Below are positions 14,010-29,589 of a DNA stretch of 64,000 bases, piece by piece. A model generated the notes under the pieces. The model saw only the letters and a program-made list of their open reading frames with translations. It was not told the origin of the DNA and searched no databases. Position numbers and translations under genes: made by a program. The DNA comes from Moraxellaceae bacterium (GTDB lineage: Bacteria; Pseudomonadota; Gammaproteobacteria; Pseudomonadales; Moraxellaceae), in assembly GCA_030680295.1 (NCBI GenBank), contig JAUXVU010000023.1:868001-932000 (forward strand), in the 5' to 3' direction. How positions within the stretch are numbered: position 1 is the first letter of the stretch; each line of letters opens with the position of its first letter.

Positions 14010-15143
14010 TCACGCGACATTAGCTTGCGTACTAACCGGCTCAATAGAGGCCAGCAAGTGATGGCGCAAATCACCGGTTAACGACTCAATACACAACAAA
14101 CGCTTTAGGTAATGCCCCACCATCACCTCATCGGTCATGCCCATACCACCATGCAGTTGAATACACTCTTGCGCGATATGCCTACCATACTCCGCCACCA
14201 TCGCCTGCAGCCGGTGGTATACCACCGATGCGTCATCATGACGCTCTTCGGCTTTTAAGGTAGCGGCGTAGAGCAGTGAACGACAATTCTCGCTCATCAT
14301 AAACATATTCACTAAGCGGTGCTGCAACGCCTGAAACTGTCCAATAGCAACGCCGAACTGTTTGCGTGTTTTGACAAAAGCCAAGGTAGTCGACATCAGC
14401 GCATCAATGATGCCGCAAGCCTCAGCCGCCAGCGCCAAACCTGCCTCATGCAGGGTTTGTTGCATCAACAAAGAAATGCCACCACTTGCTTGCAAACGAT
14501 TTTCTTCGGCAATTAATACGTTATTAAAAGTTACTTCAGCCGCACGACTTCCATCCACTAAGCGATGGCCGCTGACATGTACTCCGGCTGTATCTCGTTC
14601 GACTGCAAGCAACGCTAGTTCATCATCAATATTGGCAAGTACAAATATCCACTGGGCTAGCTCTGCATTAAGTACCACGCACTTCCTGCCGTTCAGGCGA
14701 TAACCAGTGGCTTCATGAGTAGCAAGGGTATTGCAACTATTGGTAATCGAGAAGGCTTGTTCGTACTCATGTACTGCCAATGCAAAATGTCCTTTCCCGG
14801 CCATCAAGCTTTCAAGCCATGGCTGTTTTAACGGGTGGTTTATGCGTTTAATAAGGCTGCCCGCCAAGTACGTATTAGCCCATAACGGCTCGATAATGAG
14901 TCCTTTTGCCAAGGTTTGCATTAACACCATACTGTCTTGCAAGCGTCCACCTAAGCCACCTTCAGCCTCACTAAATGGCAGATGAAACCAACCGGCATCA
15001 GCAAATGCCTGCCACACATCATGGTCTAATTGACGTCCTTGCTTCACGCGCTGACGGCGAGATTCAAATGAGTAACTTTGCGTCAAAAAACGCTCAGCAC
15101 TATCGGCTAACAAACGTTGTTCATCATCGAGTTCAAAATTCAT
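14010..15143 (-). CDS. Acyl-CoA dehydrogenase, second subunit of a pair
   Basis: A 377-aa acyl-CoA dehydrogenase family protein starting FELDDEQRLLADSAERFL. Near the C-terminus it has LHGGMGMTDE, where partner-type subunits have the FAD-contacting segment, and ALAAEACG in the middle, where a Glu could act as catalytic base. The ATG at 15143 has AGGAG seven bases upstream; the longer TTG start lies across that site. The gene follows the 401-aa dehydrogenase gene after an 18-bp gap. Such adjacent pairs often form alpha2beta2 enzymes acting on steroid side chains or other bulky acyl-CoAs. That assembly is inference here. Confidence 0.85.
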   Translation of the reverse strand: MNFELDDEQRLLADSAERFLTQSYSFESRRQRVKQGRQLDHDVWQAFADAGWFHLPFSEAEGGLGGRLQDSMVLMQTLAKGLIIEPLWANTYLAGSLIKRINHPLKQPWLESLMAGKGHFALAVHEYEQAFSITNSCNTLATHEATGYRLNGRKCVVLNAELAQWIFVLANIDDELALLAVERDTAGVHVSGHRLVDGSRAAEVTFNNVLIAEENRLQASGGISLLMQQTLHEAGLALAAEACGIIDALMSTTLAFVKTRKQFGVAIGQFQALQHRLVNMFMMSENCRSLLYAATLKAEERHDDASVVYHRLQAMVAEYGRHIAQECIQLHGGMGMTDEVMVGHYLKRLLCIESLTGDLRHHLLASIEPVSTQANVA

Positions 15144-15161
15144 GTTTGGCTCCTGATCCAA

Positions 15162-16367
15162 TTACAAACCAAGAACCATCTTGGCAATAATGTTGCGCTG
15201 TACTTCGTTCGAGCCACCATAAATAGATGTAGCGCGCGTATTGAGATAGTGCGGGACCGCTGTCACTGCATACTCAGGACCCAACGGCTGTGCTGGTTGA
15301 GAAGGCACTAGCGCATTGGGTTGCCAAATCAAGGCTTGAGCACCCAAACAAGACAACGCCAACTCGGTCAATTTTTGCTGTAATTCAGTGCCTATGACTT
15401 TTGTCATAGACGATAGCGCACCCGGATTACCGCCGCTGCTTAAAGCGCTTTTGATACGCTTTTCAGTAAATTCAAGTGCCTGAATATCACGTTGGCAACG
15501 AGCAAAGTTCAATTGAAAGCTTTCTTGCTGCCAAAGCGTTTTGCGATCAGCCGTATTTTGCCGCTGTGCCATTTGCCGTATTTTTGCTAACTGCACACTT
15601 AATACCGGCGCATACTCCAAACCGCCGCGCTCAAAAACTAATAAGTACTTCGCTACCGTCCAGCCTTGATTTTCCTGCCCGACCAACTGACTGGCCGGCA
15701 CACGCACATTCTCAAAAAATACTTCACATTGTTCCGGTGCTTCATCTAGTCCAATAATTGGACGAACAGTGATACCGGGCAAATTCATGTCCAGCAATAA
15801 AAAGCTAATACCTGACTGCGGCTTAGATTCCTTACACGTTCGCACCAAGCAAAACATCTTGTTGGCATGATGAGCGTAAGTAGTCCAAATTTTACTGCCA
15901 TTAATAATGTAGTCGTCACCGTCACGTATCGCCGACGTTCGTAGAGATACAAGGTCTGAACCCGCGTCTGGCTCGGAGTAACCTTGGCACCAAAAGTCTT
16001 CGCCCGATAAAATCCGCGGCAATAACTCGTTTTTTTGCGTGTCAGTGCCATAACCAATCAGGCATGGGCCGCACATCATCAACCCCATTGGGATTAATGG
16101 CGGCGCATCGGCGTTAATCAACGCTTCTGCAAAAATTGCGCGCTGACTAAGCGTCCAGCCTGTACCACCATACTCCACCGGCCAATGCGGCGCCGCCCAA
16201 CCTTTTGCGTGCAGAATACGCTGCCATGCCATGGTCAGTTCTGGATCCGCAAAAACCGATGTGGCTAGTCGACCTGCACGGCGGATATCGTCGGTTAGGT
16301 GATCAGAAATAAAATCTTTTACTTGAGCCTGAAACTCACGATCTTCTGTGGAGGCAACTAAGTTCAT
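15162..16367 (-). CDS. Acyl-CoA dehydrogenase, first subunit of a pair
   Basis: A 401-aa acyl-CoA dehydrogenase. GYSEPDAGSDLVSLRTSA is the characteristic FAD/substrate-binding segment of the FadE/ChsE-like group, followed by IWTTYAHHA and, at the C-terminus, IYGGSNEVQRNIIAKMVLGL. In this position many classic enzymes have Glu (YEGT); here the residue is Gly, so the catalytic base must come from another site or from the partner subunit. It is first in the leftward operon; a 24-bp dyad lies 41 bp upstream of its ATG. No obvious ribosome-binding site was seen. Confidence 0.87.
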   Translation of the reverse strand: MNLVASTEDREFQAQVKDFISDHLTDDIRRAGRLATSVFADPELTMAWQRILHAKGWAAPHWPVEYGGTGWTLSQRAIFAEALINADAPPLIPMGLMMCGPCLIGYGTDTQKNELLPRILSGEDFWCQGYSEPDAGSDLVSLRTSAIRDGDDYIINGSKIWTTYAHHANKMFCLVRTCKESKPQSGISFLLLDMNLPGITVRPIIGLDEAPEQCEVFFENVRVPASQLVGQENQGWTVAKYLLVFERGGLEYAPVLSVQLAKIRQMAQRQNTADRKTLWQQESFQLNFARCQRDIQALEFTEKRIKSALSSGGNPGALSSMTKVIGTELQQKLTELALSCLGAQALIWQPNALVPSQPAQPLGPEYAVTAVPHYLNTRATSIYGGSNEVQRNIIAKMVLGL

Positions 16368-16407: not shown

Positions 16408-16431
16408 GGTATTAATTAATCAATTTGTATC
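16408..16431. promoter_or_regulatory. 24-bp inverted-repeat operator, site 1
   Basis: GGTATTAAT-N6-ATTTGTATC: two 9-bp arms of form GNTAYWAAT facing each other across 6 bases. It lies between the divergent acyl-CoA dehydrogenase operon and the first DUF2236 gene. Two further copies are at 20985 and 25230. Confidence 0.65.
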
Positions 16432-16485
16432 ATTGTTTCCAAAAGCAATGCAATAGTAGACTTAATAATTAGCGTGGGATGAACT

Positions 16486-17376
16486 ATGCAGCCTTCACCA
16501 AAAGATTATTTTGATACCCCAAGCACACCCATAGTGAATGAGTGGTCAGAACACATAGATGCCAAATCTTGGGACCAGAAATATCCCGGCGTATTAGATT
16601 TCATCAATGGAATTGCTGGCCCCGCCAACGTCATCATGCAGCTATCGTGGCCACAAGTTGGGTACGGAGTAAAAGAAAGTCGCGTAGAAAGTGGTTCAGT
16701 AATCAAGCACCCAATTAAACGAACGCGAACCACTTTTACCTATTTAGCAGTCGCGATGACCGGCACTGGCGAAGAAAAAAAGGCTTTTCGTCGCGCAGTT
16801 AATGGCGCTCATGCTCAAGTCTATTCGACCGAGAAATCCCCTGTGAAATACCATGCAATGGACCCGCAACTGCAAAGTTGGGTAGCGTTTTGCTTGTATA
16901 AGGGATTTATTGACGCCTATAGCTTGCTGCATGGACGGCCTGAAATTGCCCACGATATTGACTTTTATAAGTTGGCGCAGCCTTTAGGAACCACGCTTCA
17001 AATGCGTGAGGATATGTGGCCAGAAACTCTTGATGGATTTGAAAAGGCCTGGCAGGAAGGCTTAGCAAAAGCCAATATCGACGATACCTTACGCGCATAT
17101 CTACACAATCTGACTTCACTACGCTATTTAAGCCCCATCACACGATTCATGTTTGGACGCTTTAATGTGTTTATGACCACCGGTTTTTTGCCACCTGAAT
17201 TACGCCAACAAATGCACTATGAGTGGTCAGAACAAGATCAACTTCGTTTTAAACGCACTTTGCGCTGGATTAGCCGCTTTAACCGTTTACTCCCACGGGT
17301 TATTCGCCAAGTTTCTTATCTTGGCTGTATGTGGGATTTTCGTCGTCGTTTAAAAAACAAAACACCACTGATATGA
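16486..17376 (+). CDS. MpaB/DUF2236-family oxygenase, copy 1
   Basis: A 296-aa protein of the oxygenase MpaB family (DUF2236, PF09995), related to the heme enzyme latex-clearing protein. Conserved features are GPANVIMQLSWPQVGYGVKESRVESGS (as a region near residue 45-70), KRTRTTFTYL, and NGAHAQV near 105, where the family has its heme-ligand His. KPLGTTLQMR-type and FMTTGFLPPELR segments follow. No signal peptide. GGGA lies upstream of the ATG. It stands alone rightwards, divergent from the dehydrogenase pair. Copy 2 at 21111 is clearly homologous. The substrate is unknown. Confidence 0.86.
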   Translation: MQPSPKDYFDTPSTPIVNEWSEHIDAKSWDQKYPGVLDFINGIAGPANVIMQLSWPQVGYGVKESRVESGSVIKHPIKRTRTTFTYLAVAMTGTGEEKKAFRRAVNGAHAQVYSTEKSPVKYHAMDPQLQSWVAFCLYKGFIDAYSLLHGRPEIAHDIDFYKLAQPLGTTLQMREDMWPETLDGFEKAWQEGLAKANIDDTLRAYLHNLTSLRYLSPITRFMFGRFNVFMTTGFLPPELRQQMHYEWSEQDQLRFKRTLRWISRFNRLLPRVIRQVSYLGCMWDFRRRLKNKTPLI

Positions 17377-17388
17377 CGCGGGCCTAAC

Positions 17389-18732
17389 TTAGCTCGGGTA
17401 GGGGCGCCCTTTAGCTTGCACATAACGAGCATGGGTTAATCGCCCCAAGTGCTGACGTAATTCATTCGTCTGCGTGTTATCTAACGCCAACTCAACTTGC
17501 TGAACTGCGGTATCAAGCGACTGCCAAATACTAAACGTTGTTTTATCGGGTACTACTAACTGCGACTTAATCATCGACAACACATTCGCCACCATTCGGG
17601 CACTGTAGTGCTGATGAGTTGGCAAGGCTGGTAATAAATCACGCAGTAATGCCTCATGTGCCAACGCAATTAGTTGAGATGACTCCGGTACAATTGCCAA
17701 CACCGGCACATCAGCCAAGTCATGTCCTAACGCCACACCGGTATCGAGCAATAATTGGCACTCAAGCCCAGGCACCAACTGTCCCGTTAATGCCAACTCT
17801 AACGAGCGCTCGCCGCCTATAGTGACCCGGTCTGCTTGCTGCAACGCAATGATTGCCCAGCGTAAATGCGCGAAAATCTCCCAAAACCTAATAACTTCAG
17901 GCGCCGGAACCCAGCCAGCTTCAGCTTGATAACCAGCCAAAAAATCAGCACGCGGACCAATACCACCGGCTTCATATTCCACACGCCCAAAGCGCCAACA
18001 AGCAGCGCAAAACCAACCTAAGTCTTCGCCTGGATCCGACCACGCCGCGAACTCCCAGTCGAGCACAGCCGTTAAGCGACCTTGGTCCACCATATAGTTT
18101 CCGGTACGTAAGTCGCGATGTGTTAGTACAGGTGAACACGCGGGTGGGCAATGCTGCTGCAACCAACATAATGCCCAACGCAGAGCGGGATGTGGTTGGT
18201 GATGCTGATCAAGCCATTGCGCCATGACTGCTAATGCTTGCCGCGCTGGCTCTACCTCTGGTGCAGACAAAAACGCTAATCGGGGCTCATCTGGCAACAC
18301 ACGATGTAAACGGGCCATCTGCTGCCCAATGTCAAATGCGAGTGCTGAACGATCCGGCACCAACTCATCATCTTTAACCAGTCGATGGCCAGCAGCCGTG
18401 CCTGCTACTCGCTCCATAAAAAAACAGGCACGCGACAAGGTCTCATCTCCCAGCCAAAATGGTCTAGGCACCGTGACACCAGCATCATATACCACCTGTA
18501 ATAGACGAAATTCTTGCTCACGAGAGAGTGACGCTTGCACCTGAGTTGCGGCATCACTTCGCATAACTAGGGCGATCGGCACTTCGTTTTCTACTTGAAT
18601 ATCTAGCGACCAGTTTTCTTGAACTGCTCCACCCGATAACTTCTTCGCCTTCAGCACTTGGACTGAGCGACCATCAAATTGACGCGATAAAAACTGGGTC
18701 AGGGCGTCACCCGACCACCAATGCGTTGTCAT
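17389..18732 (-). CDS. Phosphotransferase-family protein fused to a DUF6285-like domain
   Basis: A 447-aa protein. Residues about 20-330 form an aminoglycoside-phosphotransferase/choline-kinase-like fold with the catalytic LTHRDLRTGNYMV and the metal-binding VLDWEFAAWSDP, as in ACAD10-type kinases that phosphorylate hydroxyacyl-CoAs. The last about 110 residues (LRDLLPALPTHQHYSARMVANVLSM) resemble DUF6285, which is usually a separate small protein next to such kinases; here the two appear fused. It is the last gene of the leftward ALDH-SDR-kinase operon, 16 bp after the SDR gene. A role in hydroxy-acyl-CoA breakdown is inferred from context. Confidence 0.83.
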   Translation of the reverse strand: MTTHWWSGDALTQFLSRQFDGRSVQVLKAKKLSGGAVQENWSLDIQVENEVPIALVMRSDAATQVQASLSREQEFRLLQVVYDAGVTVPRPFWLGDETLSRACFFMERVAGTAAGHRLVKDDELVPDRSALAFDIGQQMARLHRVLPDEPRLAFLSAPEVEPARQALAVMAQWLDQHHQPHPALRWALCWLQQHCPPACSPVLTHRDLRTGNYMVDQGRLTAVLDWEFAAWSDPGEDLGWFCAACWRFGRVEYEAGGIGPRADFLAGYQAEAGWVPAPEVIRFWEIFAHLRWAIIALQQADRVTIGGERSLELALTGQLVPGLECQLLLDTGVALGHDLADVPVLAIVPESSQLIALAHEALLRDLLPALPTHQHYSARMVANVLSMIKSQLVVPDKTTFSIWQSLDTAVQQVELALDNTQTNELRQHLGRLTHARYVQAKGRPYPS

Positions 18733-18748
18733 ATTAATTGCCCAAAAA

Positions 18749-19519
18749 TTACAACGTGGATACGCAATGTCCGCCGTCGATGGTTAACACACTGCCATTG
18801 ATAAAACTGCTGGCGTCGCTTGCAAGCAACAACAACGCACCATCTAATTCGCTGGGTTGCCCCAAACGCTTTGCTGTCATGCGTTTAATTAGCCTCAAGC
18901 CCGCCTCAGTTTGAAAAAATGCACGATTCAAGTCCGTTTCGATATAGCCCGGCGCTAACGCATTCACACGAAAACCCAAACGACTGAACTCCAAGGCCTG
19001 TGCTCGGGTTAAATGATGGAGCCCTGCTTTAGCAGCTGCATACGCTGCCACTCCTTGCGCGACACGCTCACCCAGAATTGACCCGATATGAACAATACTG
19101 CCACCCAATCCGCTTCTCATGCGCTGCTGTACGAACAGTTTTGTCGTTAGCCACGGGCCTTTCAGATTGGTATCAAGCACAGCGTCCCAATCATCTTCAG
19201 TCATTGTGTGTGCCATACCCTCACGGGAAATTCCGGCGTTATTGATCAAAATGCTGATGCTATTGTCTGGCGCCCATGCTGCTGCCGAATCCAATGCACG
19301 CTGCACAGAACCAGCATCCGTAACATCCATGGCAACTGCGAATGCAGAAAAGCCAGCTTTGTTTAAATCATCAACTTGCTGAGCGAGCGCATCTATTCGT
19401 CTCGCAGCTAACACTACCTGTGCCCCAGCACTCGCCAGCGTATGTGCAAAATGCGCACCTAATCCACCAGATGCACCCGTAATTAGGGCTGTTTTTCCAC
19501 TCAATGAAAATGACGTCAT
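18749..19519 (-). CDS. SDR-family oxidoreductase (FabG-like)
   Basis: A classical short-chain dehydrogenase of 256 aa: TGASGGLG at residue 14, NNAG in the middle, catalytic Ser in HIGSIL, YAAAK active site, and PGYIETDL then NGSVLTIDGG at the C-terminus. Such enzymes interconvert hydroxyl and keto groups, for example 3-hydroxyacyl-CoA. It lies 16 bp after the aldehyde dehydrogenase gene and 16 bp before the kinase-like gene, so all three are one operon. Confidence 0.88.
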   Translation of the reverse strand: MTSFSLSGKTALITGASGGLGAHFAHTLASAGAQVVLAARRIDALAQQVDDLNKAGFSAFAVAMDVTDAGSVQRALDSAAAWAPDNSISILINNAGISREGMAHTMTEDDWDAVLDTNLKGPWLTTKLFVQQRMRSGLGGSIVHIGSILGERVAQGVAAYAAAKAGLHHLTRAQALEFSRLGFRVNALAPGYIETDLNRAFFQTEAGLRLIKRMTAKRLGQPSELDGALLLLASDASSFINGSVLTIDGGHCVSTL

Positions 19520-19535
19520 GCTATGCCTAGCCTGC

Positions 19536-20972
19536 TTATTTTGGTGCTAATAGATGCTTTTTGATGGCACGATGCGAGGCCTTATTAAACGGCGGCAGAA
19601 TAAAACGCAGCCCGGAAAAGCGCCCTTTAACCAATACTGATTTTGCATGCGACAACGTAATAAAGCCTTCGGGTCCATGGTAGCGCCCCATACCCGAGGC
19701 ACCTATACCCCCAAATGGCAGGTCATCAACTCCGGCGTGCTGCATCACGTCATTTATGGTTACACCACCCGCATGGGTGGTCTCAATTACATGTTGCTGA
19801 CGTTGCTCGTTGTAATCTAGGTAATACAAAGCCAATGGGCGAGGCCCATCATTAATGGTATCAAGCACTTTTTGTAAGTCGTCGTACTCCAGCACCGGCA
19901 ACAAAGGACCAAACACTTCTTCTTGCATGATCAACATTTCACGACTCGCCCCCAGCACCAAAGTCACTGGCAACTTGCCTGAATTAGTTAAGTCTTCATT
20001 GGCAGGATTAATCATAACGATTTGCGCACCTTTGCTTACCGCATCATCTAGATAGCGCTGCAAACGGGCCAGCTGTCGGCTGTTAATGATGGAGGTATAG
20101 TCAGGGTTATCACGTAATGTGGGGTACATTGTGCTGACTTGTGCAGTGAATAAACGGATGAAGTCATCGCGCTTACCACGTGGTAAATACAGGTGATCCG
20201 GTGCGATACAGGTCTGGCCTGCGTTCCAACACTTGCCAAAGCCTAAGCGCTCCACCAACTGTTCCAGCGGAAAACTATCGTGCACTACAACGGGTGACTT
20301 ACCCCCCAATTCCAACAACACGGGAGTTAAGTTTTTTGCAGCGGCTTCCATGACAATTTTGCCCACACGGGTCGATCCCGTAAACGTCAGATGGTCAAAC
20401 GGCAAGGTCGCAAATGCATCTGTCACATCACCTGACCCGCTATGCACACTCACTAAATCCTGAGGAAAAATATCAGCAAGCATGTCCGTAAAAACTGCAT
20501 TTAAACGTGGTGTATGACTCGACATTTTTATCATCGCCCGATTACCCGCAGCTAAGGCGTACATCAAAGGGCCGACAGATAAATACACGGGATAATTCCA
20601 CGGCACCATAATGCCAACCACGCCTAGTGGCTGATAATGAACTGCAGCTTTGCCCGGTTGCTGCAGCATCGCAACATGGCGTTTGCTTGGCTTCATCCAC
20701 TGCTTAACATGCTTGATGCAATACGCTAACCCCATCAACAAATACAGCAACTCTGCCATCTTGAACTCATCGGCCGATCGACTACCAAAGTCGTCACTAA
20801 CAGCGGCTGCCAAAGCGTCTTGATGTTGTCGTAATGCCTTATCTAACGCCTTTAAATAAGCAATTCGACGCTCTACGGATGGCATTGGTTCAGCCCGAAA
20901 TGCTGCGCGCTGATGCGCTAGGACGTTTTGAAGTTGTTGTTTCACGTCAAGATGATTGTGAGCAGAGGTCAT
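19536..20972 (-). CDS. Aldehyde dehydrogenase, coniferyl-aldehyde (CalB) type
   Basis: A 478-aa NAD(P)-dependent aldehyde dehydrogenase of the CalB/class-3-like group. Seen: TFTGSTRVGK coenzyme motif, LELGGKSP with the general-base Glu, NAGQTCIAPD with the catalytic Cys, and EEVFGPLLPV. The basic, hydrophobic C-terminus (LRFILPPFNKASHRAIKKHLL) recalls membrane-associated fatty aldehyde dehydrogenases. The ATG at 20972 was preferred over an upstream TTG. It is first in its leftward operon; a 24-bp dyad lies 12 bp upstream of the start codon, where a bound repressor would block transcription. The substrate may be a fatty or aromatic aldehyde. Confidence 0.88.
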   Translation of the reverse strand: MTSAHNHLDVKQQLQNVLAHQRAAFRAEPMPSVERRIAYLKALDKALRQHQDALAAAVSDDFGSRSADEFKMAELLYLLMGLAYCIKHVKQWMKPSKRHVAMLQQPGKAAVHYQPLGVVGIMVPWNYPVYLSVGPLMYALAAGNRAMIKMSSHTPRLNAVFTDMLADIFPQDLVSVHSGSGDVTDAFATLPFDHLTFTGSTRVGKIVMEAAAKNLTPVLLELGGKSPVVVHDSFPLEQLVERLGFGKCWNAGQTCIAPDHLYLPRGKRDDFIRLFTAQVSTMYPTLRDNPDYTSIINSRQLARLQRYLDDAVSKGAQIVMINPANEDLTNSGKLPVTLVLGASREMLIMQEEVFGPLLPVLEYDDLQKVLDTINDGPRPLALYYLDYNEQRQQHVIETTHAGGVTINDVMQHAGVDDLPFGGIGASGMGRYHGPEGFITLSHAKSVLVKGRFSGLRFILPPFNKASHRAIKKHLLAPK

Positions 20973-20984
20973 GATAATTTGCCT

Positions 20985-21008
20985 GTTATTAATTACATTA
21001 TTTGTATC
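20985..21008. promoter_or_regulatory. 24-bp inverted-repeat operator, site 2
   Basis: GTTATTAAT-TACATT-ATTTGTATC has the same GNTAYWAAT arms and 6-bp spacing as site 1. It sits in the divergent promoter between the aldehyde dehydrogenase operon and the second DUF2236 operon. Its spacer TACATT is identical to that of site 3. Confidence 0.65.
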
Positions 21009-21110
21009 ATGGTATCTATTAGCTGGCAAATAATGTGACCAATCAGTCATTGCTGGCCGCCAAATCAAATGATATAAGTTTCAAACTTTGTAACATTGTT
21101 CGGAGTTTTT

Positions 21111-21971
21111 ATGGTCGCTTCAACAATTCAGCAGGAATGGACTGGCGTTTTATCTCCTGCCGATTGGGATCGTGAGTTTCCAGGCATTCTAGATGGCATT
21201 GGCTTATTAGGCGGGACTGCCAATGTCATTATGCAGCTCGCTCACCCCGCGGTCGGCTACGGCGTCAAAGAGAGTCGCGTGGAGTCGGGCTCAATTATCA
21301 AGCACCCGTTCAAGCGTACGCGTACCACGTTGACTTATTTGGGCATTGCACTCACAGGCAGTACAGAAGAAAAGTTGGCATATCGTCGCGCCGTCAGCCG
21401 GGCACATGCCCAAGTCACCAGCACCCCGCAATCTCCTGTGGCATACCGCGCACTCGACAACAATTTGCAGTTATGGGTTGCTGCTTGCACCTTAAAAGGC
21501 TTTTTAGATTCATACGATAAATTTCAAGGCGGCATGAGTTTAGCGCAACGTCAGCGCTTTTATGATTTAGCCAAGCCACTAGGCACCACACTGCAGGTGC
21601 GCCCCGAAGACTGGCCTGCAAGTTATGAAGCATTTGAAGCGTTCTTCCAACAAGGTCTAAACCAAGCCCAAATTGACGACACCATTCGTGAGTTCCTGAT
21701 GGTGTTAGTGGACATGCGCTTCATGCCCGCGCCGGTGCGACTGCTATTTGGTCGACTCAATCGACTAATGACGGTGAGTTACCTACCACCAACACTGCGT
21801 GAGCAAATGCAGCTGAAATGGACATCTAAAGATCAACTTGATGCAGCGCGTCTTGAAAAAATAATTGGCCACAGCAATCGACTCATGCCGCGAGTCATTC
21901 GCCAACTCCCACATCTCTATTTTATGTGGGATATCCGGCGACGCTTAAGAAACCAACAATCACTTATTTAG
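21111..21971 (+). CDS. MpaB/DUF2236-family oxygenase, copy 2
   Basis: A 286-aa homologue of the 16486-17376 gene product; they share VIMQL, VGYGVKESRVESGS, KRTRTTLTYLG and the SRAHAQV segment with the probable heme-ligand His. The ATG at 21111 follows GGAG at 5 bases; an upstream TTG at 21096 is less likely. It leads a rightward operon with an acyl-CoA ligase and a DUF4334 gene, the only clear metabolic clue: the oxygenase product may be a carboxylic acid that the ligase activates. That sequence of steps is inference. Confidence 0.86.
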   Translation: MVASTIQQEWTGVLSPADWDREFPGILDGIGLLGGTANVIMQLAHPAVGYGVKESRVESGSIIKHPFKRTRTTLTYLGIALTGSTEEKLAYRRAVSRAHAQVTSTPQSPVAYRALDNNLQLWVAACTLKGFLDSYDKFQGGMSLAQRQRFYDLAKPLGTTLQVRPEDWPASYEAFEAFFQQGLNQAQIDDTIREFLMVLVDMRFMPAPVRLLFGRLNRLMTVSYLPPTLREQMQLKWTSKDQLDAARLEKIIGHSNRLMPRVIRQLPHLYFMWDIRRRLRNQQSLI

Positions 21972-22005
21972 CCGCAACGATTTAAGTCATTTCAGGAGAC
22001 GTTCA

Positions 22006-23685
22006 ATGACACAGCAAATATGGCCCAGACCGTGGCTGAGCACTTATCAATCACTAGGCCTTAACTGGGCGCAATTGCCGGTCGTGCCTGAGCAACACTT
22101 AGGTGACTATGTCAGCTCACATGCACAACAGTTTCCGGATCGTGTGGCGCTAGTTTATTTAGGACAAACCTTCACCTATTCGGCACTTGATATCTTAGCC
22201 AACCGCCTTGCTACCGGCCTGCAGCAACTTGGTCTTCATAAGGGCGATGTGTTGGCGATTCACCTACCAAATACACCGCAATATGTCGTTGCTTTTATTG
22301 CAGCGTCGCGACTTGGTTTAGTCATTACTAGCTTGTCAGCACTACTGACACCCCCCGAGCTAATTCATCAACTCAATGATGCTAAAGCGCGTGCTCTGCT
22401 AACTTTTGATCTGGTCTTTCCAACGGTCATTACGGCCATCAAAGACTGCGTTGCTAGTTTGCATAACGTTATTGTCACCAGCCCAGCATCTTGGCTACCG
22501 AACGCGCCAGCACTGCAACTTCCCACTCAGCTAGGTGCCGCCAACGTACATGACTTAACAGCACTGATGCCCTCAGAAACTCAAGTGACATCAGTGCCTG
22601 CCGATCTTGATGCAGTTGCATTTTTACAATATACCGGCGGCACCACCGGTCGCTCAAAAGGTGCACGGCTTAACTTGCGCCAGATTTTTGGCAACAACCT
22701 ACAAGTGGACGTATTTAATCAATATCGACTAGGCCAAGAAGTTATCGCTTCAGCATTCCCTTTGTTTCATATTGGTGGTTCGGCCATCATGCATAACGCA
22801 CTGCGTGTTGCCGCCACACTAATCATTACGCCTGACCCAAGACAGGTCGACCAGTTTACCCACGCTATGCGTATGCACCCACCCACCGTGATTGCCAACG
22901 TGCCAGCACTTTTTCAAATGTTGTTAGCGCATGCCCCTTTCACTGAGCTCGACTTCTCTAACTTACGTCTTGCCATTTCTGGCGCAGCACCCTTCACAGC
23001 CACCGAAATTGAGCGCCTTTCCAGCATCATTGGCCCGGGGAAAGTTTGCGAAGTTTATGGCATGACTGAAACCTCACCGGTTCAAACCTGCAATCCACCT
23101 GCAGCGTTTAAGTTAGGTAGTGTTGGTATTCCTGTGCTCGGCACTGACCTGCGTATTTGGGATATTGATCAGGCCTGTGACATGCCCTTGGGCGAGCCGG
23201 GTGAAATCATAGTCAGTGGGCCACAAGTTATGCTGGGCTATTTAAGCTCCGCCGACCAATCCGGTGGTCTTATTGAGCTCGACGAAAGCACGTGGATGTT
23301 CACCGGAGATATTGGCTGGCTAGACGATGAAGGTTATTTACACTTGTGCGACCGCAGCAAAGACATGCTTATTGTTGGTGGCTACAAAGTGTTCTCGGTC
23401 GAAGTAGAAGCTGTTGTGCAGTCATTAAAGTGGGTGGCTATGTCAGCCTTGGTAGGAAGGCCAGACCATGACCGTCCTGGCAATGATGTCGGACGCCTCT
23501 ATGTGCAACTGGCACCAAATGCCGATATAGGTGAAGCGTCAGCTCGCACTGAACTATTAGCTTTGTGCCGCCAGCATTTAGCACCCTATAAAGTGCCGCG
23601 TGAAATTGTATTTGTAGCCGCCATTCCACTGACTTCAGTGGGCAAAATCGATAAAAAAGTTCTTCGGGCGCAAGCCGCTGCTTAA
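22006..23685 (+). CDS. AMP-dependent acyl-CoA ligase
   Basis: A 559-aa adenylate-forming enzyme of the ANL superfamily. Core motifs are seen in order: FLQYTGGTTGRSKGA (P-loop), YGMTETSPVQ, TGDIGWLDDEGYLHLCDR with the ribose-binding Asp, GGYKVFSVEVEAVV, and the C-terminal SVGKIDKK with the catalytic Lys. These fit a fatty-acyl or similar carboxylic acid CoA synthetase. It begins 34 bp after the oxygenase gene with AGGAG upstream, and the DUF4334 gene follows 13 bp later. Chain length or ring specificity cannot be told. Confidence 0.9.
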   Translation: MTQQIWPRPWLSTYQSLGLNWAQLPVVPEQHLGDYVSSHAQQFPDRVALVYLGQTFTYSALDILANRLATGLQQLGLHKGDVLAIHLPNTPQYVVAFIAASRLGLVITSLSALLTPPELIHQLNDAKARALLTFDLVFPTVITAIKDCVASLHNVIVTSPASWLPNAPALQLPTQLGAANVHDLTALMPSETQVTSVPADLDAVAFLQYTGGTTGRSKGARLNLRQIFGNNLQVDVFNQYRLGQEVIASAFPLFHIGGSAIMHNALRVAATLIITPDPRQVDQFTHAMRMHPPTVIANVPALFQMLLAHAPFTELDFSNLRLAISGAAPFTATEIERLSSIIGPGKVCEVYGMTETSPVQTCNPPAAFKLGSVGIPVLGTDLRIWDIDQACDMPLGEPGEIIVSGPQVMLGYLSSADQSGGLIELDESTWMFTGDIGWLDDEGYLHLCDRSKDMLIVGGYKVFSVEVEAVVQSLKWVAMSALVGRPDHDRPGNDVGRLYVQLAPNADIGEASARTELLALCRQHLAPYKVPREIVFVAAIPLTSVGKIDKKVLRAQAAA

Positions 23686-23698
23686 CGGAGCAACCTGC

Positions 23699-24139
23699 AT
23701 GACAATCGAAACATTTAAAATGCTCGCCGACAGGCAACGCAGCACACCCATTACCGAGCTAGAGTCCTTATTTGATTCACTACCAGCAGTTTCAGAGTCT
23801 TTCATGATTGGAGACTGGCTTGGCGGTGTTTTTAACACCGGCCATGCTGGTGAGTCACAACTTACGCAACTCAATTGGGTCGGTAAACGCTTTAGCGATC
23901 GACTTAATGTTAATCCGATTGTGTCACTTGATGACACAGGTCAACGCTTTGCCAACCCTATCATGGGCTCAGCACAGCTTCGTATGGTGGAGTATCGGGG
24001 GGTTAGCACAGCAACTATGATTTATGACAAACACCCGATTATGGACCACTTTCGTCAAATTGATGCCAACACGGTGTTAGGCGTTATGGATAAAAAAGGC
24101 GACAGCATGCCGCTGTATTTTTATCTACAGCGGCTTTAG
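23699..24139 (+). CDS. DUF4334 domain protein with GXWXG motif
   Basis: A 146-aa protein matching by eye the GXWXG (PF14231) plus DUF4334 (PF14232) architecture: an N-terminal FMIGDWLGGVFNTGH strand, WVGKRF, then MVEYRGVSTATMIYDKHPIMDHF and NTVLGVMDKKG near the C-terminus. It is probably a small beta-barrel ligand-binding protein, of unknown function, often found with lipid catabolism genes. It is last in the oxygenase-ligase operon and nearly abuts the convergent AdeT-like gene, with a 3-bp gap. Confidence 0.78.
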   Translation: MTIETFKMLADRQRSTPITELESLFDSLPAVSESFMIGDWLGGVFNTGHAGESQLTQLNWVGKRFSDRLNVNPIVSLDDTGQRFANPIMGSAQLRMVEYRGVSTATMIYDKHPIMDHFRQIDANTVLGVMDKKGDSMPLYFYLQRL

Positions 24140-24142
24140 TCC

Positions 24143-25162
24143 CTATTCGTCCGTCAATGAACACTCTGCCGCATCAGGCTTTACGCGGCAGCGCACACGC
24201 TTCAATAAGCGCATCATATTGGGATGGTAATCGCCATCTTTGGTAATTTGGATTCGCGCCAAACGCATCATTTCAACGTACTTCACTTTATCGGCGGCCG
24301 ACAAATCCATCCAATACTTGGCATCAATATTTTTTTCTTCGCGCGCAATAATTTCAAACGCAATATCAATCTTACTGTTAATAAACTCACGCAGCTGCTG
24401 GGCCACGCCCGGCGGAAACGCATCTTTACGAATCACCAATGACGCCGTAATCATGGCTAAAGGAAAACGATATACACCACCTTTGTCACCCATGCCGCGA
24501 TATATTTCTAGCGGCTTAAATGCCACTGCCGGTGCAGCAATAATATCGACCTGACCATTGTTAAATTTGCTCGCAAAGTTGGTGATATCTGATGGCACCG
24601 GTTGCGCGCCCATTTGAGACACCATTTTTGCTTGTGACCGATCCCAATCAAACACTGCAACTTTTTTGCCTGCCGCTGTTTCAACGGAGTTAATTGCACG
24701 ATCTCGCACCATTACATATGCTGCGCCCAGTGGTGCAATGCCTGCAATTTCATATTGACCCTCCACCATTAAATGCGCCATTTTTGGGTCAACTAACGCA
24801 TTCAACACCGCCTTTAAGTGTTGGTTGTCTGGCACTGCACCAATGGCATCCAAGCTACCTACAAACTTATTAAACTGCTTAGCACGTAAAGTCGTCACTG
24901 CTGCACCATCACATTGCCCCGCCTTTAGTTCCTCAGCCACCACACGCTCATCAGGAAACACTTTGAGCTTGGCATCTAGACCCCAACGACGCGCTTCTAA
25001 CATGTGCTCACGGGTATTGGCATAAGCCGGCCCATTCGTGCCTAAGGGATCAAAAATACAGATAGTGACCTCTTTTAACGCAGCCGCAATAGCCGCATTT
25101 GGTACGGCAGATACGCTTGCAAGCAATATTGCTGCAAGCACCGTCAGTTGTTGTTTTTTCAT
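24143..25162 (-). CDS. AdeT-like putative solute-binding protein
   Basis: A 339-aa predicted periplasmic protein with a signal peptide ending near AAIAA. The rest resembles the AdeT1/2 (DUF6091) group, which has a TRAP-type solute-binding fold: EVTICIFDPLG at the mature N-terminus, LKAGQCDGAAVTTLRA, and NNGQVDIIAAPAVAFKP in the second lobe. AdeT proteins were first named as efflux accessory factors in Acinetobacter, but the fold suggests ligand binding. No transporter membrane genes are adjacent. Its promoter is shared with the FadL gene and a 24-bp dyad, which suggests binding of the same class of hydrophobic compound. Confidence 0.78.
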   Translation of the reverse strand: MKKQQLTVLAAILLASVSAVPNAAIAAALKEVTICIFDPLGTNGPAYANTREHMLEARRWGLDAKLKVFPDERVVAEELKAGQCDGAAVTTLRAKQFNKFVGSLDAIGAVPDNQHLKAVLNALVDPKMAHLMVEGQYEIAGIAPLGAAYVMVRDRAINSVETAAGKKVAVFDWDRSQAKMVSQMGAQPVPSDITNFASKFNNGQVDIIAAPAVAFKPLEIYRGMGDKGGVYRFPLAMITASLVIRKDAFPPGVAQQLREFINSKIDIAFEIIAREEKNIDAKYWMDLSAADKVKYVEMMRLARIQITKDGDYHPNMMRLLKRVRCRVKPDAAECSLTDE

Positions 25163-25229
25163 GATTGGAGCCCTTTTTAATGCAGCTAGTCGGCTGCTAC
25201 TTGATTTTTATTCTGCTCTCGTATACATA

Positions 25230-25253
25230 GATACAAATTACATTATTTATACC
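25230..25253. promoter_or_regulatory. 24-bp inverted-repeat operator, site 3
   Basis: GATACAAAT-TACATT-ATTTATACC has the same arms and spacing as sites 1 and 2. It lies 38 bp upstream of the FadL start and 67 bp upstream of the divergent AdeT-like gene. Confidence 0.65.
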
Positions 25254-25291: not shown

Positions 25292-26977
25292 ATGAATAAA
25301 AAATTAGGGGCTTTTGCTGCAATACAGCTATTGGTCAGCATGAACGCTGTCGGAGCGGGGTTTGATGTGCCTGTTATCGCAAGCGCTATGCAAGGCAGCG
25401 CTAATGCCAACTCAGCAGAAACCCGCGACCCTAGTGTCATTTTTTACAATCCAGCAGGTATTGCTCATCTGCGTGGCCGTCAGATCAGCAATAGCATCAG
25501 TGTTTTGTCATTGACGGGCAAAGTCGAAAATGAAGGCACCACGGGTACCCCTCCACCATTCAATACCAATAATTCAGACTCGCCGCCAGGTGCAACAATT
25601 TCAGGCGGCAAAGCTGGTACGTATTGGCCAAAGCTTATTGGTAGTGGTGCTTTTTTTGCCAGCGTACCGTGGAATGATGAAATCACCTTGGGTTTTGGTC
25701 TATTCCCTGCCGCAGGTGGCAACATTAACTATAAAGCTGACTGGTTTGGTCGTTATTTTAGCGACTCCACGGCCGTTGAAATCGTTAACGCAAATACTGT
25801 CGCTGCCATTCGTTTTGATGACAAGCATAGCTTAGGCTTTGGTACCTCATTACTAATCGGGCACTTAAAGCAAAAACTTCATATAGATATCGACGGCATA
25901 GCACCATACTTATTGCAGCCCGTTATTGATGATATTGGTGTTGGCACTGTCGGCTCATTGCTAAACGGTATATTAGGGGTACAGGCATTATCGCCATCTC
26001 TAATAAATAGCCTCGCCAACCTTGGCATCTCAGCAGAGGATATATATCAACTATTACCCCCCAATCTAAAAGGGACTGTAGCCCAATTAGGCGGCCAAAT
26101 TTTGCTAACTGATGACAGCAACGGCTCAGGCACTATCGAGATGTTTGGTTACGGCTTGGGCTGGAACATTGGTTATATGTTCAGGCCGGATGAAAAGTCA
26201 CAAATTGGCATTGCCTATCGCTCTGAATCCCGCATGTATATGCGCGGTGAAATCGACTGGGAAGTGTCACAAGTATCTGGGCTTACCGATAACATAGCGC
26301 CTATTAATGGACTGCCTGCACCTGACGGCAGTGGCAACGTTTCAGCATCTGACTTTTTAGCGAACTATTACCGTCCAGATGCTACCACCAAATCACTTGT
26401 CCGTATTCCAGCTCGTTTATCCATTGGTTACTTCAGAAACTTAAACCAGAAGATTGACTTAATGCTCGACACCACGTTTATCCAATCATCCGTAGTTCGG
26501 GGCATTCAAGTGAATATTCTTGACGAGCCGACACCTAACGGCGAGGGCGTAATTGAACAGAAACCAGGACGCATTGATCAAAACTGGAAAGACTCATACA
26601 AAGCGTCGGTAGGGCTAAACTATCATTACAACGACAAGCTGATGTTGCGTACAGGTTATCAGTACGACAAGACGCCAATTCCTTCACCTGAATTCAGACA
26701 CCCTGGTGCTCCAGACAACAATCGGCACATGCTGTCGGTAGGTGCAAACTATAAATACAAGCCAAATATATCGCTGGATGTCGCCTATAGCCTGATGCAC
26801 ATCGAAGATGCGAGCTCTCGCTATCGAGACCCATGTCGTGGCGCATTTTTGGAAGAAGGAGACAGCTTTACAACTAGCAAGGAGCAGGACTGTACCGGCA
26901 ATGGCGGCACATTTCGGGGGCGATTCACTGACACCTTTATTCATATCTTGGGCTTACAGCTTAATAGTCGATTCTAA
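25292..26977 (+). CDS. FadL/OmpP1/TodX-family outer-membrane transporter
   Basis: A 561-aa outer-membrane barrel for uptake of hydrophobic compounds. A signal peptide ends around NAVGA; the mature start GFDVPVIAS and the NANSAETRDPSVIFYNPAGIAHL segment are the FadL hatch-domain signature. The barrel strands end with the terminal Phe (LNSRF). A roughly 100-residue insert near residues 190-280 (DGIAPYLLQPVIDD... region) is larger than in E. coli FadL (about 446 aa). The gene faces away from the AdeT-like gene across a shared operator. The tRNA-Arg follows 82 bp later. Confidence 0.9.
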   Translation: MNKKLGAFAAIQLLVSMNAVGAGFDVPVIASAMQGSANANSAETRDPSVIFYNPAGIAHLRGRQISNSISVLSLTGKVENEGTTGTPPPFNTNNSDSPPGATISGGKAGTYWPKLIGSGAFFASVPWNDEITLGFGLFPAAGGNINYKADWFGRYFSDSTAVEIVNANTVAAIRFDDKHSLGFGTSLLIGHLKQKLHIDIDGIAPYLLQPVIDDIGVGTVGSLLNGILGVQALSPSLINSLANLGISAEDIYQLLPPNLKGTVAQLGGQILLTDDSNGSGTIEMFGYGLGWNIGYMFRPDEKSQIGIAYRSESRMYMRGEIDWEVSQVSGLTDNIAPINGLPAPDGSGNVSASDFLANYYRPDATTKSLVRIPARLSIGYFRNLNQKIDLMLDTTFIQSSVVRGIQVNILDEPTPNGEGVIEQKPGRIDQNWKDSYKASVGLNYHYNDKLMLRTGYQYDKTPIPSPEFRHPGAPDNNRHMLSVGANYKYKPNISLDVAYSLMHIEDASSRYRDPCRGAFLEEGDSFTTSKEQDCTGNGGTFRGRFTDTFIHILGLQLNSRF

Positions 26978-27059: not shown

Positions 27060-27136
27060 GCGCCCGTAGCTCAGCTGGATAGAGTACTGCCCTCCGAAGG
27101 CAGGGGTCGTGGGTTCGAATCCCGCCGGGCGCGCCA
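27060..27136 (+). tRNA. tRNA-Arg (anticodon CCG)
   Basis: A 77-nt cloverleaf. The acceptor stem pairs GCGCCCG (27060-27066) with CGGGCGC (27126-27132), followed by discriminator G and an encoded CCA. The D arm reads GCTCAGCTGGATAGAGT, the anticodon arm CTGCC-CTCCGAA-GGCAG gives CCG, and the T arm has GGTTCGAATCC. CCG reads the codon CGG. Confidence 0.97.
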
Positions 27137-27264
27137 TTAATTACAAAACGTTACCGTTCATCTACAAAAATATAACTTCCGTCGGCTTTGATGGATTGTT
27201 CAAGCACACGCCGTTCGAAATCTGCTCACACTACGCCCCTCTAAGAATAACTCGGGGTTCCCTC

Positions 27265-29589
27265 ATGAAAAAAACGCTGCCTACTTTATTAGCCCTTAGC
27301 GCCGCCATTACGCTAGCCGGCTGCGGCGGAGGCAATAACGACAATGCGGGGGCTGCTAGCCAACGAATTACTGGGACGAGCGCGATTGAACCCCGCCTAA
27401 ACTGTGAAGGGGCAGAATGTAATGAAATTGGTGGATTTACAAAGCCGTTCGTTGAACCTTGGGGCCCAAGCGTTATGCGTGAGCTCAGTGAAACTGGCGA
27501 AATGCCACGCAGCGAAATTGAAGACCCACTTCGCACACCGAAAGGCAATCTGAAGAACCCATTAAAAATGGTGCCACAAGATGATCGCTGTCTGCGCATG
27601 GCCGATGGTCGCCCCACTGAGTGCAAACCAGCTGCTGGCTCCATTGCCTTACTTGAAGACAATCGTGTGCTCTATTTCAATGCACTAGAGGGAACGGAAG
27701 ATGCTGAATTTAGTATCTTTTTTGAAGCGGGTACGGTGGTTACTAACGACCAAACGCGTGTTATGACATTAAATGGCAATGAAGCAGGCTGGATGCGCCC
27801 ATCACCTATTGATGGTGGTGCTACAAACGAAAACCGTAACACGCTACTGAAACCTTTTAGCGCGCTGCTAGGCAGTCTGCCTTTAGGCATTGATACCGGC
27901 GAAGACAGCATCAACAATGACGGTGCGCTATTTTGTGCCGACTTAAGTATGCTGGCTGATGGCCGTGTCATGGCCGTTGGTGGCACCGACTATTATTTTG
28001 AGCCGGGCATTTCGGCGCCCATTGCCATCGGCCTGTCCGAATTAGAAGGCGTTCGTAACGCTCGTGTATTTGACCCGCGCAATAACTCATGGAGCAAAAC
28101 TGGCGACATGAATTTTGGCCGTTGGTATCCCTCGCTAACAACACTGCCTGATGGAAATGTTTTTGTTAGCTCTGGTGTTACCAAGTTAGTGAAGCCCGTT
28201 TACCTAGAGCGCCCACTTGCCTCTGGTCGCAACGTAGTTGAAACGGAAACTTACAATCTAGGCTGCGGCACTTGGACAGATAATGGCGGCCTAGCCCAGC
28301 GCTCATTGCCACTGTACCCACGTCACCACTTACTACCCAACGGCCATGTTTTATATAACGCTGCTGGCCAAGCCTTTAATCCCTTTGGTCAAGCCTATGA
28401 CCAAGCGCTGTGGAATATTGTTTCTGCATACGACCCGGTCAACAAGTTGTGGACTGACCTTGGTTATGCCGGTTTGCCACTGCGTTTAAATGAACTTGGT
28501 TTGGAGCGTTTAGGCTCAGCACTTAACCCAACCAACCCCAACGCTCCTGCCGACGTCGCACAGACAGTGACCGGTTTGTTAAGTTCATTAACCAGCGACC
28601 CGATGGCATTACTAAGCTCTTTAGAAAGCTTGCCGCGTGAACCTCAGGCGTTGTTATCCACATTAATTGGTGCTGGCTTCCGTGGTTCAACATTCTCCGT
28701 TCAACTACCTTTACGCCCTAATGCAGAAGGCCGTTACGATAATGCGGAGTTCCTAACCGGCGGTGGTGTATTAGGCCTTGTCACCGCTAACAGTCCTGGC
28801 TCTTATGTCACAACTGATACTTCGCGTATCGACCGTATCAATATTGATGCCGACGACAGTATGAGCTACGAGTCACGTGTGACAGGCAATATGACCACCC
28901 CCCGCTGGTATGGCACGGGTGTGCTGCTGCCAACAGGCCAAGTCATGGTGTTCTCAGGCGCTGACCGTGATGAGGTGGTTTTACCCGGCACTGGCGCACC
29001 TATCTTGCGCTCAGAAATGTTTGACCCGGCGACCGAAACATGGAAACCGATGGCCACTCAACATAACCCACGCACTTATCACAACACGGCAATCTTGTTG
29101 CCCGACGGTCGGGTATTAATTGGCGGACACTCACCAATCAATACAGCCTATGCGTTCTCAATTAATATTCCTGGCCTATCGCCAAACGATGGTCGTGACC
29201 CTAGTTTTGAGATTTACAATCCACCGTATATGTTCCAACAACGTCCAGCTATTAACTCAGTCGCCAACCGAGCAGAACATGGTCAGTCGTTGAATGTAGC
29301 CACGCCTGACGCTGCCGATATTGTCGAAGTGGTGATGGTGCGTCGTACTACGCTGACGCATATTGTTGATGGTGACCAGCGTACCGTGGTGTTGCCAATT
29401 ACCTCGCGCACTGGCAATAGCCTCACGGTCAAAATGCCGGAACAAAAAGCGGTGCTGCCACCCGGCCCTTACATGATGTTTGTGATCACCGAACGTAATG
29501 GCATGCGTGTACCGTCAGAGTCCAAACCTGTGCGTGTCACTGGTGCGGACACCACTTGCCGTCCAGATGCAATGATGGCGGCACGTTAA
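27265..29589 (+). CDS. Secreted galactose-oxidase-like (kelch) lipoprotein
   Basis: A 774-aa protein. The start at 27265 gives a lipoprotein signal with lipobox LAGC (Cys20). The body has kelch-type repeats (DGRVMAVGG, DGNVFVSSG, NGHVLYNAAG, DGRVLIGGHSP) and ends with the Greek-key C-terminal domain found in galactose/glyoxal oxidases (SFEIYNPPYMF onward). RTYHNTAILLPDG carries Tyr-His, equivalent to copper ligands Tyr495/His496 of galactose oxidase, and LTHIVDGDQR the likely third His. An active copper-radical oxidase making hydrogen peroxide is therefore possible. A two-repeat partner gene overlaps its stop codon. Confidence 0.83.
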   Translation: MKKTLPTLLALSAAITLAGCGGGNNDNAGAASQRITGTSAIEPRLNCEGAECNEIGGFTKPFVEPWGPSVMRELSETGEMPRSEIEDPLRTPKGNLKNPLKMVPQDDRCLRMADGRPTECKPAAGSIALLEDNRVLYFNALEGTEDAEFSIFFEAGTVVTNDQTRVMTLNGNEAGWMRPSPIDGGATNENRNTLLKPFSALLGSLPLGIDTGEDSINNDGALFCADLSMLADGRVMAVGGTDYYFEPGISAPIAIGLSELEGVRNARVFDPRNNSWSKTGDMNFGRWYPSLTTLPDGNVFVSSGVTKLVKPVYLERPLASGRNVVETETYNLGCGTWTDNGGLAQRSLPLYPRHHLLPNGHVLYNAAGQAFNPFGQAYDQALWNIVSAYDPVNKLWTDLGYAGLPLRLNELGLERLGSALNPTNPNAPADVAQTVTGLLSSLTSDPMALLSSLESLPREPQALLSTLIGAGFRGSTFSVQLPLRPNAEGRYDNAEFLTGGGVLGLVTANSPGSYVTTDTSRIDRINIDADDSMSYESRVTGNMTTPRWYGTGVLLPTGQVMVFSGADRDEVVLPGTGAPILRSEMFDPATETWKPMATQHNPRTYHNTAILLPDGRVLIGGHSPINTAYAFSINIPGLSPNDGRDPSFEIYNPPYMFQQRPAINSVANRAEHGQSLNVATPDAADIVEVVMVRRTTLTHIVDGDQRTVVLPITSRTGNSLTVKMPEQKAVLPPGPYMMFVITERNGMRVPSESKPVRVTGADTTCRPDAMMAAR

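Follow-up and report, generated by a model that had tools for sequence, protein, structure and literature searches.

A candidate TetR-type repressor and its putative operators in a cluster of MPAB/Lcp-type oxygenase genes of a Moraxellaceae bacterium

Introduction

AlkX and LcpRB are TetR-type regulators that bear on the system considered here, a cluster of putatively catabolic genes that harbors a tetR gene and three copies of a 24-bp inverted repeat, and that lies in a 64,000-nucleotide stretch (the window) of the genome of a Moraxellaceae bacterium (assembly GCA_030680295.1, contig JAUXVU010000023.1, positions 868,001 to 932,000). The gene of AlkX is located just after the oxygenase genes for a hydrophobic substrate, its repression is relieved by fatty acids, and the outcome is a positive feedback (PMC8784404). 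Rv3249c of Mycobacterium tuberculosis has also been named AlkX (PMC9430723). LcpRB is a regulator of Lcp in Streptomyces and binds to the palindrome TATGTTAAT-N2-AAAATCACA (PMC8235351). As for the enzymes, cleavage of C=C bonds is reported for the nitrile rubber oxygenase Nro1, for the fungal MpaB and for Lcp (PMC12724181), the substrates named for MpaB and Lcp proteins being nitrile rubber, polyisoprene and a farnesyl chain (PMC12724181, PMC5522427). A haem role has been inferred for H104 of Nro1 from H198 of LcpK30 (PMC12724181).

The locus resembles AlkX of Dietzia in that its tetR gene would stand behind the other genes of its proposed unit (site 1, followed by the acyl-CoA dehydrogenase (ACAD) genes ACADa and ACADb and then tetR) and in that repression is the proposed mode of action; the sequence similarity between AlkX and the TetR protein of the window is weak (30.6 bits). 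By gene content the regulon is not an AlkX, which controls an alkane hydroxylase system, whereas no alkane hydroxylase or rubredoxin Pfam match is found among the 20 proteins encoded between 9810 and 31660. It has in common with LcpR and LcpRB, from Gordonia VH2 and Streptomyces, a regulator of the TetR type, and the Lcp catalytic domain belongs to the same Pfam family as MPAB, although the LcpRB site differs from the window operator. A plasmid of Gordonia VH2 encodes a TetR protein 31% identical to that of the window, downstream of an MpaB-family gene which we take to be Lcp1; this neighboring TetR could not be identified as LcpR from the gene table of the plasmid, which is incomplete.

An operator-like sequence in three divergent promoter regions

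The TetR protein of the window is probably the factor that binds the repeats, and the genes around them are likely to form a local, self-regulated repressor regulon that would work like AlkX and allow the cell to take up an unsaturated lipid or isoprenoid and cleave it at C=C bonds. The original prediction, made from the DNA letters, had described three 24-bp repeats, each of them between divergent operons, with GNTAYWAAT fitting all six half-sites and the spacer TACATT common to sites 2 and 3, and these features are present as claimed, the flanking genes being ACADa/MPAB1, those of an aldehyde dehydrogenase (ALDH) and MPAB2, and AdeT/FadL (Table 1). It had also named a high frequency of the motif at unrelated promoters as a result that would speak against it, and this was not borne out. 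The genome (2,602,093 bases in 44 contigs, 99% complete) contains the pattern GNTAYWAAT-N6-ATTWRTANC, derived from the three sites themselves, in exact form three times, always inside 8.8 kb of the cluster, and the reversed control pattern not at all. The 198 other genomes of the family contain 19 exact matches (in 18 genomes, mean 0.1) versus 16 for the control pattern, which corresponds to the chance level. When one site is left out, the consensus of the other two recovers it with at most one mismatch, whichever two are taken, and nothing else in the window comes that close.

Degenerate copies are less informative. The genome holds two copies with one mismatch outside the cluster (C2:91519 and C6:186732), and since both are inside long open reading frames they are not proposed as further members of the regulon. 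At two mismatches or fewer it gives 21 matches versus 12 for the control pattern, so that weaker copies are not trustworthy on sequence alone, and in the window, at three mismatches or fewer, there are six matches versus 2.1 expected, a number reached in 3 of 100 shuffles. As palindromes alone the three sites are ordinary: their arms pair at 6, 6 and 7 of 9 positions, a level met by 712 of about 64,000 window positions. A scan for σ70 promoters was uninformative (14 found versus 23.2 expected).

We propose the segment 21071-21094, which did not figure in the original prediction, as a weaker fourth operator. Several relatives have an oxygenase-promoter site at a distance that resembles its own. 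As the second divergent region would then contain two sites, there may be one operator for ALDH and another for MPAB2.

Related sites at the promoters of relatives

In relatives, designated below by our handles for genomes (G) and loci (L), a looser core, GAKAC-N14-GTMTC, recurs in TetR-linked clusters at the promoters of oxygenase and ACAD genes. This related palindrome, found in other genera, supports by comparison both the regulon and the TetR candidate of the original prediction; its further claim, that the regulon is undescribed, stands in so far as no description of such a regulon was found in open-licence literature, the operator strings were not found in open-licence papers, and regulation of this kind was not found there for Nro1, fungal MpaB or Lcp either.

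The core was compared with 59 permutations of its half-site. Seventeen MPAB promoters from 16 genomes were considered, 260 bp each, without L123 and without L094, L107 and L112, whose matches are partial, weak or distant; four contain the exact core and 12 contain it with at most one mismatch, against permuted means of 0.10 and 0.73. Upstream of ACADa in relatives, the core is exact in 4/6 promoters and within one mismatch in 5/6 (permuted means 0.0 and 0.12), the one-mismatch case being L113; these five positives all belong to one family (f43), and in them the match lies about 54-78 bp 5' of ACADa, a finding that supports site 1. In a wider set of regions upstream of MPAB genes, 5/33 contain the core exactly (permuted mean 0.14, best 5) and 14/33 contain it when one mismatch is allowed (1.51, best 14), while upstream of tetR genes the figures are 7/80 (0.32, best 6) and 23/80 (3.05, best 22). 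A spacing of 14 is the peak.

The half-sites themselves vary. Sites that combine GATAC and GAGAC precede ACADa in L104, L105, L106 and L116 and MPAB in L110, and in L116 both pure forms stand before one MPAB gene; these mixed sites bridge the GATAC and GAGAC forms. In G029, of the same genus, the sequence TATACAAATTACGTTTTTTATATC (L076:863-886) is located between MPAB and FadL, with two mismatches to the window pattern, and in the MPAB promoter of L081 a 25-bp GTTAC...GTAAC element occupies the place of the core. A perfect palindrome, GATACAAATTACATTATTTGTATC, with spacer TACATT, was observed in Hydrocarboniphaga (L064:18851-18874) in front of a unit with an AraC-type gene and a ligase gene, and the surrounding region holds genes for a Rieske oxygenase, a thiolase and a CoA transferase; a weaker copy of the motif is found in the same locus 66 bp upstream of a distant TetR gene.

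Several observations weigh against this reading of the comparison. The core was derived from part of the promoters in which it was then counted, and many of these come from close kin, so that its counts are not blind. It is lacking, at one mismatch or fewer, from the ACADa promoter of G029 and from the MPAB promoters of L076, L079, L081, L120 and L121, and at this level it is not enriched in the own genome (96 versus 110). The permuted half-site KAGAC does as well as GAKAC at the 17 MPAB promoters (exact in 5, up to one mismatch in 13) and is the best control each time in the wider sets, with 14/33 MPAB-upstream regions; KAGAC overlaps GAGAC, the form of most relatives, and its score shows that the oxygenase sites of the relatives are mostly NAGAC and not the GATAC of the window. 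Relaxing the search to two mismatches and spacings of 13-15 gives 16/17 MPAB promoters with a permuted mean of 8.8, which is uninformative. A matrix built only from the window sites performs less well, picking out, at p<=0.05, 13/80 TetR regions (permuted mean 7.6, maximum 17), 6/21 MPAB regions near tetR (2.0, maximum 5) and 4/12 other MPAB regions (1.15, maximum 4). Within the window, the fourth site is backed by its position, its sequence alone being not significant, and in G029 the ligase, the short-chain dehydrogenase/reductase (SDR) and the kinase were not found within the 40 kb read.

The TetR protein and its homologues

The product of tetR matches the TetR_N helix-turn-helix with 50.3 bits (cut-off 24). 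Its structure model, for which 33 homologues were used, has a predicted local distance difference test score (pLDDT) of 88.1 and predicts 11 helices in the all-helical, two-domain TetR fold. The model matches structures of the TetR family, including Rv3249c (TMq 0.66-0.68, 24-25% identity), AlkX of Dietzia, QacR and FadR, none of which fixes the ligand.

Homologues of this protein are rare among the genomes scanned: they occur in at least 3 of 199 genomes of the family (E<=1e-15) and in at least 17 of 390 of the order (E<=1e-20), the own genome counted in both, and in at least one of 369 of the class (E<=1e-25), that one being the own genome. These numbers are lower bounds, as up to 15 candidates per family genome and up to eight per order or class genome were scored. 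The patchy distribution could suggest acquisition; the GC content of the cluster, 0.48 versus 0.49 and 0.50 in its surroundings, shows no difference pointing to it. A simple insertion was considered and rejected, five other genomes of the genus with both rpiA and the ParA gene having them on different contigs.

At the order level, 19 tetR loci were compared (18 new ones and L094). An MPAB match accompanies tetR in 17 of them, and in 14 it is no more than 300 bp away; the match of L107 is weak and 6 kb from tetR, and no MPAB match was found in L109 or in L114, which ends at a contig edge. Five of these loci (L104, L105, L106, L113 and L116) also contain ACADa-ACADb plus the ligase. G029 has a TetR protein 61% identical to that of the window, with ALDH, AdeT, one MPAB, FadL and the gene of a 224-aa protein around one site. 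Much further away, a plasmid of Streptomyces fungicidicus (L123) encodes a TetR protein 39.5% identical and carries genes for an ACAD and an ALDH as well as a divergent pair of MpaB genes, and no well-scoring site of the 24-bp form was found on it.

Organization of the gene cluster

Gene spacing suggests six transcription units: ACADa-ACADb-tetR-224aa, MPAB1, ALDH-SDR-APH kinase, MPAB2-ligase-DUF4334, AdeT and FadL, arranged around three divergent promoter regions with a site in each. As tetR would be part of the operon headed by site 1, it would regulate itself if its product binds this site. The gene of the 224-aa protein, not included in the original prediction, is likely to be a member of the cluster.

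Table 1. Putative operators and genes of the cluster, in window coordinates
Feature	Position	Strand	Sequence, location or remark
Operator site 1	16408-16431		GGTATTAAT-TAATCA-ATTTGTATC; between ACADa(-) and MPAB1(+); 41-64 bp 5' of ACADa start codon, 55-78 bp 5' of MPAB1
Operator site 2	20985-21008		GTTATTAAT-TACATT-ATTTGTATC; between ALDH(-) and MPAB2(+); 13-36 bp 5' of ALDH start codon
Operator site 3	25230-25253		GATACAAAT-TACATT-ATTTATACC; between AdeT(-) and FadL(+); 39-62 bp 5' of FadL, 68-91 bp 5' of AdeT
Candidate fourth operator, weaker	21071-21094		2 mismatches to pattern; 17-40 bp 5' of MPAB2 ATG (21111)
224-aa protein gene	12697-13371	-	3 bp 3' of tetR; in G029 a homologue (54%) comes after FadL
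tetR, TetR-family regulator (TetR_N, TetR_C_35)	13375-14001	-	putative repressor acting on the sites; 8 bp separate its start from ACADb
ACADb, acyl-CoA dehydrogenase, second of pair	14010-15161	-	
ACADa, acyl-CoA dehydrogenase, first of pair	15162-16367	-	
MPAB1, DUF2236/MPAB_Lcp_cat oxygenase	16486-17376	+	
APH-type kinase	17389-18732	-	third gene of ALDH unit
SDR	18749-19519	-	second gene of ALDH unit
ALDH	19536-20972	-	first gene of ALDH unit
MPAB2, DUF2236/MPAB_Lcp_cat oxygenase	21111-21971	+	
Acyl-CoA ligase	22006-23685	+	homologues (51-58%) adjoin TetR-linked oxygenases in relatives
GXWXG/DUF4334 protein	23699-24139	+	
AdeT-like solute-binding protein	24143-25162	-	66% homologue in G029 cluster
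FadL-type outer-membrane transport protein	25292-26977	+	66% homologue in G029 cluster

At the edge of the cluster, directly after FadL, there is a tRNA-Arg (CCG) gene (27060-27136). The listed start of the following open reading frame (27109-29589, plus strand), whose product is galactose-oxidase-like/GlxA-like, overlaps this tRNA gene, and its true start is therefore probably later. Further on, the product of 42029-45571 (minus strand) is a distant homologue (22% over 1244 aa, E 2.6e-21) of a Big_5-domain protein encoded near the tetR gene and RoxA homologue of G353 (L116:5369-8695).

Oxygenases and the proposed pathway

MPAB1 and MPAB2 score 186.1 and 205 bits against Pfam MPAB_Lcp_cat, far above the cut-off of 23, and in this they are like Nro1, fungal MpaB and Lcp. 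They have one invariant His, H109, a candidate haem contact, in 9/9 aligned members; these include a Gordonia protein of the MpaB family, presumably Lcp1. For MPAB2, phmmer found a single match among solved structures, at chance level.

A different type of oxygenase is found in one relative locus, that of G353, where the gene opposite tetR is a homologue of 4b2n (E 3.6e-97) with two CxxCH motifs; we take 4b2n to be the rubber oxygenase RoxA, in agreement with a Pfam RoxA-like match of the gene. The sequence GATACAATAAGATTAATTTGTATC, with two mismatches to the window pattern, lies between this RoxA homologue and tetR. No RoxA homologue was found in any other relative locus searched, save L097, which is the same place as the G353 locus; by tblastn none was found in the window, and the own genome gave only a match below the cut-off. 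As a further observation, three loci of relatives encode, downstream of their MPAB-ligase genes, a fusion of a LolB domain with an MPAB oxygenase domain (L116:802-2457, L104:13099-14742 and L106:13008-14657), and in L116 and L104 an FMN_bind gene adjoins the fusion.

Taken together with the oxygenases, the presence of FadL, ALDH, the ligase and the paired ACADs suggests that an unsaturated hydrophobic compound is taken up, cleaved, oxidized and activated and then enters beta-oxidation, with an isoprenoid as a first guess for the substrate. Among solved structures the ACADs match 4x28 and Tcur3481/3483. Their assignment as the pimeloyl-CoA dehydrogenase PimC/PimD was rejected, as they miss the NCBIfam equivalog cut-offs (349.4 bits versus 623.85 and 237.6 versus 652.7).

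Alternative explanations

The sites could be bound by another regulator, either a different TetR of the genome or an unlinked factor, while the local TetR has other targets. This seems unlikely, although the genome contains 26 TetR_N matches, most oxygenase sites of the relatives have a third base other than that of the window form, and the perfect copy in L064 stands before an AraC-type gene, where a TetR gene with a weaker copy is also near. The occurrence of related sites in other genera, at promoters of oxygenase and ACAD genes that are linked to this TetR clade, argues for the local protein, as do the L064 copy placed 66 bp before its TetR gene and the absence of exact matches outside the cluster in the genome. 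That TetR acts on the sites as an activator, or as a repressor plus activator, is also rather improbable. The distances between the three sites and the start codons (13-126 bp) do not fix the sign, and some TetR-family proteins do activate, FasR being a named activator, but the 13 bp between site 2 and the ALDH start suit a steric block, and the regulator-in-operon layout resembles that of AlkX, a repressor. A chance origin of the repeats, as AT-rich promoter look-alikes, is very improbable indeed: the imperfect, AT-rich arms, unremarkable in their pairing, and the modest excess over controls at two to three mismatches would suit it, but it has to face the uniqueness of the exact matches, their clustering, the leave-one-out result and the related sites in relatives.

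The regulon may be real and still serve the breakdown of an oxylipin, of a simple unsaturated fatty acid or of the side chain of a steroid, with the MPAB proteins not cleaving an isoprenoid C=C bond, an alternative that we find doubtful and yet serious. It draws on FadL, which suits fatty acids, and on the ACADs, whose structural matches, 4x28 and Tcur3481/3483, are presumably heteromeric enzymes of steroid side chains. Moreover, PMC4496055 discusses together with RoxA the di-haem proteins PA2077/PA2078, which oxygenate long-chain fatty acids. Cleavage of an isoprenoid is favored by the reports on MpaB and Lcp as C=C cleavers, which concern a farnesyl chain, nitrile rubber and polyisoprene (PMC12724181, PMC5522427), and by the RoxA homologue beside a window-type site in G353.

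Proposed model and implications

The observed parts of the system are the sites, the uniqueness of their exact matches in the genome, the gene content and the recurrence of a related core upstream of oxygenase and ACAD genes in TetR-linked clusters, and from them we infer binding, a dimer, repression over activation, the ligand, the substrate and the order of the pathway. In the repressor model, TetR would be a dimeric, ligand-responsive protein that occupies the 24-bp repeats at the three divergent regions and holds down the six units, its own (ACADa-ACADb-tetR-224aa) included. An unsaturated hydrophobic substrate would enter through the FadL-type channel, and the basal amount of MPAB (Lcp-fold) haem oxygenases would cleave a C=C bond in it, giving aldehyde or ketone products that ALDH and SDR would turn into an acid, the ligase into an acyl-CoA and the paired acyl-CoA dehydrogenases would then process. 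An intermediate of this route, most likely a carboxylic acid or a CoA ester, would release TetR, and its release would raise the whole set including tetR, a positive feedback as in AlkX.

More tentatively, as a possibility that falls somewhat short of the probable, this would be an undescribed kind of regulon present in several families of one order, in which a TetR clade would respond to products of C=C cleavage and couple MPAB oxygenases (in one relative, one of the RoxA type) to uptake and a paired acyl-CoA dehydrogenase. On this reading, bacteria with an outer membrane would possess an isoprenoid-cleavage pathway with its own sensor, whose operator would serve as a finder of further alkene-cleaving oxygenases. 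The regulon is new and its design is of a known kind, and the link to alkene-cleaving oxygenases is more than routine. The proposal offers a sensor and an operator that can be tested together for a class of alkene-cleaving haem oxygenases that has received little study, and it names their likely partner genes in the pathway: FadL, ALDH, the ligase, the paired ACADs and the 224-aa protein. If the proposal is true, the operator could guide the search for rubber- or terpene-degrading enzymes and provide a part for biosensors.

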